Of a DNA stretch of 58,728 nt, positions 52,088 to 55,184 are shown piece by piece (the first letter of the stretch is position 1; each line of letters starts with the position of its first letter). The notes under the pieces were generated by a model. That model ran no database searches and was not told the origin of the DNA. It saw only the letters and a list, made by a program, of their open reading frames with translations. The stretch comes from Terriglobia bacterium (GTDB lineage: Bacteria; Acidobacteriota; Terriglobia; Acidiferrales; UBA7541). The position numbers and the translations under genes are program-made. Where the stretch lies: contig JAIQEV010000034.1 in assembly GCA_020073585.1 (NCBI GenBank), forward strand, positions 1 to 58,728, read 5' to 3'.

Positions 52088-52111
52088 ATCTTGTTTTTCC
52101 AGCGAAGGCCG

Positions 52112-52768
52112 ATGGCCGGAACGAAGATCAAACACGACATCGCACTCATCGTCGAACGCCGCGGCGGCGCCGCGCCTCCCGCCGGTGGTGGCGACGGCGG
52201 CGGCCGCGGCCCCCAGCCGGGCGCTGCTTCGCCCAGCCGCTACTACACCGGAATCTCCATCGCCCTCGCGGCCATCGTCATGTTCTTCATGGCCCTGACC
52301 AGCGCCTACGTCATCCTCAAAGGCGTCAATAGCCTCTGGCAGCAGGTGACGCTTCCGCCCATCCTGTGGGTGAACACCGTCGTCCTTTTCGTCAGCAGTC
52401 TGACCATCGAGTTGGCACGCCGCCGCCTGGCCCGCAGCGACTTTTCCGCCTTCCGCGCTCTCTGGAAGGTCACCACGGGCTTGGGCCTGCTCTTCCTGGC
52501 CGGGCAATTGCTCGCCTGGCGCCAGCTGGTCGCCGCCGGCGCCTATCTGTCCAGCAATACCGCCAGCAGTTTCTTCTACATCCTGACCGCCGCGCACGCT
52601 CTGCATCTGCTGGGCGGGATCATCGCCCTGGCCTACGTCGCGGTGCACAACTTCGACCGCGGGGAAGGCGTCTCCCGCGTCGTGGCCGCCAACGTTGCCG
52701 CCATCTACTGGCACTTCATGGACGGCCTGTGGGTCTACCTCCTGGCCCTCCTCTATTTCGTGAAGTAA
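52112..52768 (+). CDS. Heme-copper oxidase subunit III (orphan)
   Basis: A 218-residue membrane protein with five hydrophobic helices typical of the short cytochrome c oxidase subunit III. Family features are ISIALAAIVMFFMALTSAYVI, ASSFFYILTAAHALHLLGGIIALAYV and the terminal VAAIYWHFMDGLWVYLLALLYFVK. The N-terminus (residues 15-40) is an unusual Gly/Pro/Ala-rich tract with GGGDGGGRGPQPGAASP. ATG 52112 follows GAAGG. Subunits I and II and the assembly genes are not adjacent, so it must work with an oxidase encoded elsewhere. The downstream neighbour is a peroxiredoxin on the opposite strand. Confidence 0.85.
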   Translation: MAGTKIKHDIALIVERRGGAAPPAGGGDGGGRGPQPGAASPSRYYTGISIALAAIVMFFMALTSAYVILKGVNSLWQQVTLPPILWVNTVVLFVSSLTIELARRRLARSDFSAFRALWKVTTGLGLLFLAGQLLAWRQLVAAGAYLSSNTASSFFYILTAAHALHLLGGIIALAYVAVHNFDRGEGVSRVVAANVAAIYWHFMDGLWVYLLALLYFVK

Positions 52769-52838
52769 CCCGCCGCCGCAGAGGCGCACGACTTCGCCGC
52801 TGCTGCCCAGGACGAACTACGGCGCGGTGGCCGCGGGT

Positions 52839-53411
52839 TTATTTCTTCGGCAGCTTGGTGCACACCGCTATAGCGTTGTTGGGATTGACGGCGCTGGAGC
52901 CTTCCTCGATGTGCTGGATCACTCCCTGCTTATCTACGACGAAGGTGGTGCGCTGCGCCCATTCGTACTCGTCCTTTTCGACGTTGTACATCTTGAGGAT
53001 GCCGTACTGCTTGAGGACCTTGCGGTTCATGTCGCTCAGCAGGGGAAAGGTGACGCCCAGTTTTTCGGCAAAGGCGTTGTTGGCGGCGGGGCTGTCAATG
53101 CTGATGCCCAGAACGACGGTATCCGTCGCGTCCAGCTTCTGCCTATCAGCCTGATAGGCTTGCAGTTCCTTCGTTCAACCCTCGGTGAAGGCCAGGACGT
53201 AAAAGGCCAGCACCACGTTCTTCTTGCCGCGGAAGTCGCTGAGGTGCACCGGCTTCCACTTGTTGTCGAGGAGCGTGAAATCCGGCGCGGTCTCCCCGAC
53301 CTTCAACTGCGTGTGGGCAATCTCGGCTTTCTGGCCGGCGGGAAGCCGCGGGGCCAGGCTGCCAACGAGGGCCGTGGCGAGGATGGAAGCCGCCAAGCGT
53401 CTGCGATTCAT
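52839..53411 (-). CDS. Selenocysteine-containing exported peroxiredoxin (UGA at active site)
   Basis: A peroxide-reducing AhpC/TSA-type enzyme, 190 residues if TGA 53175-53177 is read as selenocysteine (residue 79). The frame is unbroken on both sides: [15 protein letters not shown] ... [29 protein letters not shown] ... [15 protein letters not shown] ... [20 protein letters not shown] ... [12 protein letters not shown]. In this family T-x-x-C precedes T/S-x-E, so the TGA sits exactly at the peroxidatic cysteine; the Thr at -3 and the distal Arg (QRTTF) are kept, while the Pro usually at -7 is Val. A Cys near the C-terminus (AIAVC) could be the resolving residue. A signal peptide ([20 protein letters not shown]) indicates periplasmic location. 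ATG 53411 follows AGGGGG. A hairpin 15 nt past the TGA is a SECIS candidate. The alternative, a nonsense mutation or sequencing error, is less parsimonious. Confidence 0.8.
53141..53159 (-). promoter_or_regulatory. Candidate bacterial SECIS element
   Basis: On the message strand GCCTATC-AGGCT-GATAGGC forms a perfect 7-bp stem with a 5-nt loop (an extra A-U pair would leave a GGC triloop). It starts 15 nt after the in-frame UGA and the apical loop begins 23 nt after it. Known bacterial SECIS elements are stem-loops with a small apical loop, with G among its first two bases, about 16-37 nt downstream. It lies within the coding sequence, as required. Confidence 0.65.
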
Positions 53412-53519
53412 GAAACCCCCTGCGCGGTGAATTTGCAAACCGCCGTGAGTATACGCCATGCCTGGCCGGGAACGGAACTGCTTGCGGCAGCCCGCGTCAC
53501 TGCCCGTCTTTGCGGGGAA

Positions 53520-53924: not shown

Positions 53925-55004
53925 TTACAGGTTGTGGATGTGCGCCAGGCGGAAGGGCGATTCCAGATTGCGGCGCAACTCGGCCCAGTCGCTCTCCGGG
54001 ATGGCATGGAAGACCTCGACGACCCGGGGATCAAACTGCGTGCCCGCGCAGCGCAGGATTTCATCGCGGGCGTGGGTCAGGGACAGGGCTTTGCGGTACG
54101 GGCGGTCGGAGATCATGGCATCCATGGCGTCGGCGATGGCGAAAATGCGCGCCCCGAGGGGAATCTCTTCGCCCTTGAGGCCCCGCGGATAGCCCGTGCC
54201 GTCGAAGAACTCCTGGTGCGCCAGGACGATTTCCGCGGCATCGCGCAGAAAGGGAATGCGTGTGAGCATGTTGTAGCCGATGTCGCAATGCGTGCGCATG
54301 ATCTGCTTCTCGGCGTCGTCCAGCGGGCCGGGTTTGCGCAGGACCACATCGGGGATGGCCATTTTGCCGATGTCGTGGAGAAACGCGGCGCGCGCCAGTA
54401 CGGGGAGAGATTCGGGCGCAAGCTTCATGGCCTTGGCGATGTAGATGGTGAAGGCGGTGACGCGCTGGCAGTGGCCTTCGGTTTCGGCGTCGCGCAGGTC
54501 GAGTGCGCTGCCCAGGGCTTCCAGGGTGTCGTCGTAGGACTGCTCGAGCTGGGTGAGAGCGCCGGAGAGCTGCGCGGTGCGCTCCTCGACGAGTTGCTCG
54601 AGGTTGCGCTGATAATTGCGGTTTTCGAAGACCAGCCGGCGGTGCTGCAGCGCGCGGCGCACCCCCAGGAAAAGCTGGTCCTTCTCGAAGGGCTTCAGGA
54701 TGTAGTCGTAGGCGCCGCGGCGGATGGCCTCCAGCGCCGTGGTGATGTCATGCATCGCGGTGACCATGATCACCGGCACGTCCGGGTCATACTCGCGCAG
54801 CCATTCGAGCAGGCGGATGCCGTCCATCTCCGGCATGATCATGTCGCTCAGGACCAGGTCGGGAGCGAATTTCGGGATCATCTCCTGGGCTACTCGCCCG
54901 TTGTAGGCCGTCGCGCACTGGAAGCCTTGGGCCTCCAGCATTGTGGAGACGACCTCGCGGATTGGCTCTTCGTCGTCCACAATCAGGATTTTTTCGGTTT
55001 CCAC
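53925..55004 (-). CDS. Response regulator with HD-GYP phosphodiesterase output
   Basis: A two-component regulator whose output degrades cyclic di-GMP. The receiver domain (1-125) begins KILIVDDEEPIREVV with phosphoacceptor Asp54 in LVLSDMIMPEMDG and Lys in DYILKPFEKDQ. A coiled-coil linker (VEERTAQLSGALTQLEQSYDDTLEAL) leads to the HD-GYP domain. It has the metal residues HDIGKMAIPD and the GYP-bearing HQEFFDGTGYPRGLKGEEIPLGARIFAIADAMDAM, in which the GYP signature is complete, so the enzyme is probably active. GTG 55004 with GGGAG upstream is chosen; a longer frame to 55103 exists. It is divergent from a multi-sensor histidine kinase (about 180-base gap), which may be its partner. Confidence 0.88.
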   Translation of the reverse strand: METEKILIVDDEEPIREVVSTMLEAQGFQCATAYNGRVAQEMIPKFAPDLVLSDMIMPEMDGIRLLEWLREYDPDVPVIMVTAMHDITTALEAIRRGAYDYILKPFEKDQLFLGVRRALQHRRLVFENRNYQRNLEQLVEERTAQLSGALTQLEQSYDDTLEALGSALDLRDAETEGHCQRVTAFTIYIAKAMKLAPESLPVLARAAFLHDIGKMAIPDVVLRKPGPLDDAEKQIMRTHCDIGYNMLTRIPFLRDAAEIVLAHQEFFDGTGYPRGLKGEEIPLGARIFAIADAMDAMISDRPYRKALSLTHARDEILRCAGTQFDPRVVEVFHAIPESDWAELRRNLESPFRLAHIHNL

Positions 55005-55184
55005 GGTTAAGGACTCCCGGCAGCCATTATATGGGACAGCACACGGTTCCATGCGTGGTCTTGCCCAGTTAGAAAATAGCGTGTTACGGTCAAGTACAGG
55101 CATTTATTCCGGCTGGTTGTGGGAAGTTGCAGGAACCACGGCGGCAGCCCGCCTGTGTAGGGTGTTTCCACCCGGAGGCCCACC

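Follow-up and report, generated by a model that had tools for sequence, protein, structure and literature searches.

The stretch of DNA analysed here, called the window throughout, comprises 58,728 nucleotides and is contig C104 of a Terriglobia bacterium genome of 4.03 Mb in 113 contigs (96.7% complete, 3.3% contaminated). On its minus strand a single frame runs from an ATG at 53411, immediately preceded by a Shine-Dalgarno-like GGGGG, to a TAA at 52841..52839, and its sole interruption is a TGA at 53177..53175. The features of the gene are:

52839..53411, minus strand: putative selenoprotein gene, AhpC/TSA (PrxQ/AhpE-like), 190 codons plus stop
53328..53411, minus strand: N-terminal hydrophobic stretch, probable signal peptide, peak mean hydropathy 2.12, boundary approximate
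53196..53198, minus strand: Val72, at position -7 relative to the UGA-encoded residue, where the aligned solved peroxiredoxins have Pro
53175..53177, minus strand: in-frame UGA, predicted Sec79, at the peroxidatic Cys column (UGA in 54, Cys in 7 of 61 family genes)
53141..53159, minus strand: bSECIS-like hairpin, GCCUAUCA-GGC-UGAUAGGC, 8 bp, GGC loop at 53151..53149
52950..52952, minus strand: Arg154, invariant in 31 of 31 rows
52860..52862, minus strand: Cys184, proposed resolving Cys, invariant in 31 of 31 rows, in model helix 178-186

The gene lies convergent to a cytochrome c oxidase subunit III-like gene (52091-52768, plus strand), and a response regulator with an HD domain is encoded at 53925-55103 (minus strand); one or both of these neighbours are also found near the gene in the related loci L023-L026. 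Translation table 11 yields two fragments for the gene (53175-53459 and 52839-53030), just as an earlier, sequence-only reading of this DNA had anticipated for conventional gene finders. The read-through protein matches PF00578 (AhpC-TSA) with 123.1 bits (E 8.3e-36), exceeding the Pfam gathering cut-off of 26. Among the NCBIfam profiles it reaches no cut-off; models of the ResA and TlpA type are matched more weakly, again below their cut-offs. When the protein is aligned with solved peroxiredoxins, a Sulfolobus PrxQ-like chain and mycobacterial AhpE, the TGA coincides with their peroxidatic Cys. Reading of the frame and this alignment together confirm the central claim of the sequence-only reading, an in-frame UGA at the peroxidatic cysteine.

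We compared the gene with its relatives using 61 family genes: the best 30 loci from a search of related genomes, 3 from a pattern scan of contigs and 28 from a search of the phylum. The pattern scan covered 14 loci, of which L052 and L053 were removed as duplicates of L024 and L025, their contigs being of equal length and their translations identical, and nine (L057-L065) were excluded as non-family; six of the nine were translated and none carried the family motif, while L060, L062 and L064 were excluded on 32% identity only. The phylum search spanned 297 genomes, and its best 46 rows, the window's included, each contain exactly one TGA, the position of which was confirmed in 28 rows besides the window. 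Row L068 corresponds to the window, and the motif scan missed L088. The codon at the Sec position is TGA in 54 of the 61 genes and TGC or TGT in 7, a share that describes the near family and not all peroxiredoxins, since a gene entered the set for its resemblance to the window protein or alignment A1. One member lies on a contig labelled Deltaproteobacteria (L056), and another locus, L047, carries two family genes in tandem (180-620 and 667-1224), both of which contain a single in-frame TGA; the first of them apparently starts without a signal peptide. Alignment with Cys homologues, as the sequence-only reading had proposed, places Cys and Sec in the same column, both in the 7 family rows and in the solved peroxiredoxins.

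This survey bears directly on the plainest alternative, that the UGA is a nonsense mutation or a sequencing error in an ordinary Cys peroxiredoxin. Such an event would fit a single UGA in an otherwise intact frame of a draft genome, but it would not explain why 54 of the 61 family genes, drawn from many different genomes, share the identical UGA, and because the UGA is conserved we judge this explanation to be already refuted; its probability is negligible. It is further contradicted by purifying selection after the UGA and by the Sec machinery of the genome, described below. In three pairwise comparisons dN/dS was 0.149 (L023), 0.047 (L024) and 0.053 (L025) after the UGA, and 0.027, 0.043 and 0.060, respectively, before it. 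Given these low values on either side, both parts of the gene are under purifying selection. The same result weighs against a selenium-dependent switch, in which translation would frequently terminate at the UGA and either the 78-residue product or mRNA decay would sense the selenium supply. Every UGA-Sec gene competes with termination, which lends this idea some initial appeal, but selection on the downstream codons and retention of the gene in two lineages with Cys replacing the UGA make it very improbable.

The sequence-only reading had called for a genome search for selA, selB, tRNA-Sec and selD, and had named a lack of selB and tRNA-Sec as grounds for abandoning the selenoprotein interpretation. 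All four are present in the genome. A tRNA-Sec with anticodon tca was identified by ARAGORN, which was used to decide since the tRNA-Sec model also matches tRNA-Ser, and the protein genes score above their cut-offs: selA at 555.5 bits (cut-off 267.9), selB at 359.7 bits (242.25) and selD at 349 bits (125). The selD gene itself contains an in-frame TGA in the context AAG-U-AAK; therefore the genome very probably uses Sec in this further gene. A second selD with an in-frame TGA, followed by a discontinued selB start, is found on contig C56 of the same assembly (L018, 1480-2792); it was left uncounted as evidence because its G+C is lower (0.588 in L018 versus 0.639 in the window) and C56 is possibly a foreign contig.

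Similar equipment was found in related genomes. In three close relatives, G008, G009 and G033, selD is likewise present, together with a tRNA-Sec match that scores 61-66 bits against a cut-off of 47; one of these assemblies consists of 10 contigs and is 98% complete. Among 61 genomes, our own plus 60 relatives, selA exceeds its cut-off in 55 and selB in 54. For the 23 genomes with the Sec form that came from the relatives' search the figures are 22 of 23 and 21 of 23, respectively: G025, a draft of about 800 contigs, has a selA fragment only, G006 has selB in two pieces, and in G055 selB was not found over the cut-off. Three genomes (G046, G050 and G054) have neither selA nor selB over the cut-off, and among the matches listed none of their peroxiredoxins contains a stop. 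Two side observations concern the close relatives. The selD of G033 (L102) is a Cys form, though this genome keeps tRNA-Sec, selA, selB and the Sec peroxiredoxin-like gene. The near-complete relative G009 has two tRNA-Sec-like matches (L098) 3.6 kb apart, at C2:1112064-1112158 and C2:1115713-1115807, scoring 60.9 and 66.2 bits.

We then examined the RNA downstream of the UGA, where a 7-bp hairpin at a distance of 15 nt had been proposed. The distance holds, but the stem is 8 bp long and not 7; the loop lies 23 nt after the UGA and the predicted folding energy is -11.3 kcal/mol. The available text of a 2026 review gives limits for bSECIS elements (loop 3-9 nt, stem 4-16 bp, G at loop base 1 or 2, spacing 16-37 nt, MFE ≤ -7.5; PMC13188914), and the window hairpin, with its 8-bp stem, GGC loop and spacing of 23, lies within them. 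Thus, the hairpin passes the bacterial SECIS scan suggested for it, but the scan is unspecific: of the 1300 TGAs in the window 400 were sampled and 206 passed, as did 3 of the 7 Cys forms, and 9 of the 54 Sec forms failed. Since about half of the sampled TGAs pass, we dropped the scan as evidence. A best stem of at least 8 bp was found at just 8 of the 400 TGAs. A search of 52800-53450 against Rfam gave no match up to E 1, which says little, since Rfam is not known to include a general bacterial SECIS family.

More informative were tests at the codon level. Compared with dinucleotide shuffles the folding energy is unremarkable by itself (z -1.46, with 19 of 200 shuffles as good), while compared with synonymous recodings it gives z -2.78 (p 0.005). 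The recoding test separates the two forms of the gene: Sec loci have a mean z of -1.9, with p<0.05 in 13 of 26, versus a mean of +0.17 and 0 of 7 for the Cys loci. Codon choice in the stem agrees with this. Thirty of the 48 distinct Sec sequences have both Tyr and Asp there, and in these Tyr is encoded by TAT in 30 of 30 and Asp by GAT in 29 of 30, against 31% TAT and 34% GAT elsewhere in the 26 Sec ORFs from the relatives and the pattern scan (the phylum-search ORFs having been left out of this background); the p values, 8e-16 and 5e-13, are uncorrected for kinship, and the related sequences in all of these hairpin tests are not independent. Synonymous constraint tracks the UGA.

Covariation points in the same direction. 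In the 48 Sec sequences 40 cells changed on both sides of the stem, versus 14.2 (sd 2.9) in shuffled alignments and at most 15 when the structure was slid along the alignment, and the covariation score was 0.241 versus 0.100 and at most 0.089, respectively; the structure scored was drawn up after single-sequence folds of these loci, which favours it over the slid versions. Two of five measures, the number of pairs changed on both sides and that of further pair types, did not stand out, values as high being reached in 181 and 186 of 500 shuffles. The change from U-A to C-G at pair 24-32 occurs in three places that are separate on the tree: L045, L086 and the L027-type clade. Of the five upper-stem pairs, 26-30 and 23-33 are lost from all 7 Cys genes and 22-34 from all but one, whereas 25-31 and 24-32 remain pairable in 7 and 6 of them. 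The shared stem is missing in 8 of the 48 Sec sequences, all divergent members. RNAalifold returned no consensus structure for the 48 Sec sequences, only 4 bp (-1.8) for a set of 26, and a different hairpin (-2.9) for the 7 Cys forms; because of this, support for the hairpin comes from the covariation counts and the codon tests and not from a de novo consensus. Most Sec forms retain the hairpin, which is eroded in the Cys forms.

Taken together, the Sec machinery, the UGA in 54 of 61 family genes, the Cys at the same codon in 7 and the codon and hairpin evidence bear out the proposal of a selenoprotein with Sec at the peroxidatic residue. From these comparisons, the reading of the gene as an intact selenoprotein is strongly supported, and the UGA at 53177..53175 is almost certainly read as Sec.

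The distribution of the two forms suggests how they are related. A tree of 62 rows requires two state changes: one gives a clade of six Cys genes (support 100/98) nested among Sec genes from their own genus, and the other is L051. This reads as Cys having arisen twice within a Sec family; the tree is rooted by one long outgroup, and the direction from Sec to Cys follows from the nesting, not from a firm root. For peroxiredoxins the available text of a 2006 survey reports five Cys-to-Sec events and no Sec-to-Cys event (PMC1794560), in contrast to the two Sec-to-Cys changes on our tree. The 7 genomes with the Cys form retain the Sec machinery, with selB over the cut-off in 7 of 7 and selA in 6 of 7 (a fragment in G011). 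Five Cys-form genomes of the same genus (G013, G018, G024, G030 and G032) have a second homologue with one TGA, which may explain this retention.

The protein is probably exported. A hydrophobic N-terminal stretch is present in 59 of 59 judgeable rows, as judged by hydropathy rather than by a signal-peptide predictor, which agrees with the export claimed in the sequence-only reading; of the remaining rows, L026 is truncated by the end of its contig and L051 lacks the N-terminal extension. The AlphaFold model has a mean pLDDT of 84.7, with residues 1-4 and 6-30 under 50. Its closest folds are 5epf (Z 25.1), M. tuberculosis AhpE (24.6), Bcp4 (24.4) and PrxQ (about 23), where values within 1 count as tied, and the rmsd to 5epf and AhpE is 1.5-1.6 over 149-151 residues. 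In an alignment of 31 rows the Sec/Cys column, Arg154 and Cys184 are invariant; we take the position of Arg154 to be that of the peroxiredoxin active-site Arg. Residue -3 is Thr in 54 and Ser in 7 of the 61 genes. Residue -7 is Val in 58, Ile in 2 and Ser in 1, and Pro in none, so that the Val noted earlier at this position is real but is a family-wide trait and not a peculiarity of this gene. Position +5 after Sec79 is occupied by Gln84, which rules out a PrxQ with its resolving Cys at +5. Measured against a strict peroxiredoxin (PxxxT/SxxC or U), the protein has the Thr/Ser at -3, the Sec/Cys and the Arg, and lacks the Pro at -7. Because of this missing Pro we do not apply the strict label, and class the protein as an AhpC/TSA selenoprotein whose mode of action is probably that of a peroxiredoxin.

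Absence of the Pro also means that peroxidase activity cannot be assumed. The UGA could encode Sec in a protein that is not mainly a peroxidase but an exported selenol/thiol-disulfide oxidoreductase, or a reducer of another oxidant. The lack of Pro at -7 in 61 of 61 genes, the second invariant Cys in 31 of 31 rows and the sub-cut-off matches to ResA- and TlpA-type models are all compatible with such a role. On the other hand, the best sequence and fold matches are to PrxQ, Bcp and AhpE, Thr or Ser occupies -3 in 61 of 61 genes and Arg154 is present in 31 of 31 rows, and the window protein has neither a CxxC nor a UxxC motif. On this balance a non-peroxidase role is unlikely, and, judging from its sequence and predicted fold, the protein is likely an exported AhpC/TSA Sec oxidoreductase that acts as a peroxidase.

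In the mechanism that we propose, SelB and Sec-tRNA would decode the UGA as Sec through the hairpin directly downstream, as the comparative evidence suggests. The product would be exported via its predicted N-terminal signal peptide, and is predicted to form a PrxQ/AhpE-like thioredoxin-fold domain. By analogy with the family, the Sec79 selenolate would reduce peroxide to water or alcohol and become a selenenic acid; Cys184 could then attack the selenenic acid to give a selenenylsulfide, which periplasmic thiol-disulfide proteins would reduce. We favour Cys184 as the resolving Cys by a small margin of confidence. As a whole, an intact exported Sec peroxidase with its UGA decoded via the hairpin is very likely the best explanation of the locus.

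Compared with known systems, the protein is nearest in sequence to M. tuberculosis AhpE (4x0x) and archaeal PrxQ/Bcp (2ywn, 3hjp), and it shares their fold (Z 24.6 for 4x0x and 24.4 for 3hjp). AhpE and 2ywn have Cys with Pro at -7 where the window protein has Sec with Val, and 2ywn has Cys at +5, unlike Gln84 here. PrxU (NF040737), which we take to be a Sec peroxiredoxin, is weakly similar: the window protein scores 61.8 bits, far from the cut-off of 270. Prx-SUH, which the review's available text lists as a thiol peroxidase selenoprotein with a CxxU motif (PMC13188914), differs in that motif, and against its model (NF045827) the window protein scores 36.3 bits with a cut-off of 298. Sec peroxiredoxins of the TxxU type (PF00578 / COG1225) are a published class (PMC13188914, PMC9312934). 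The gene resembles them, as described in the available text of these sources, in its AhpC/TSA domain, the Thr at -3 and Sec at the peroxidatic position; set against that description, it has Val in place of the Pro of PxxxTxxU, probable export and an invariant C-terminal Cys, and its Cys forms are nested within Sec forms, with two changes; some of these traits may be shared by other known Sec peroxiredoxins.

The suggestion of a new selenoprotein therefore stands in part: the class is already known, but in the literature that we found the family is undescribed, and no NCBIfam cut-off is reached. With its N-terminal hydrophobic stretch, its lack of Pro at -7 and its invariant C-terminal Cys, and with no NCBIfam model claiming it, the family looks new. 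The literature that our searches brought up on selenoproteins of the peroxiredoxin, AhpE or bSECIS kind or of Acidobacteriota gave no description of it, though an earlier listing in a supplementary table is possible; one acidobacterium is tabulated with three known, unnamed selenoprotein genes in the available part of one source (PMC12013277).

The analysis recovers a gene that standard ORF reading splits, and similarly built relatives occur in dozens of genomes. With them comes a further family of Sec oxidoreductases, probably exported, whose motif differs from the PxxxTxxU given in the available text of the 2026 review (PMC13188914). Sec and Cys orthologues occur in one genus with Sec machinery in both, the hairpin being mostly kept in the former and eroded in the latter. 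A speculative proposal, in which we place little confidence, is that in this phylum-wide family of exported Sec oxidoreductases Sec took over the active-site-tuning role of Pro and, together with a C-terminal resolving Cys, yielded either a new activity or an extracytoplasmic peroxidase that resists oxidation. If so, loss of the Pro at -7 would cripple a Cys enzyme but would be tolerated or even favoured in one with Sec and a C-terminal resolving Cys, and the same-genus lineages that returned to Cys, still without the Pro and with the Sec machinery kept, would offer a natural experiment on the reasons for keeping Sec.
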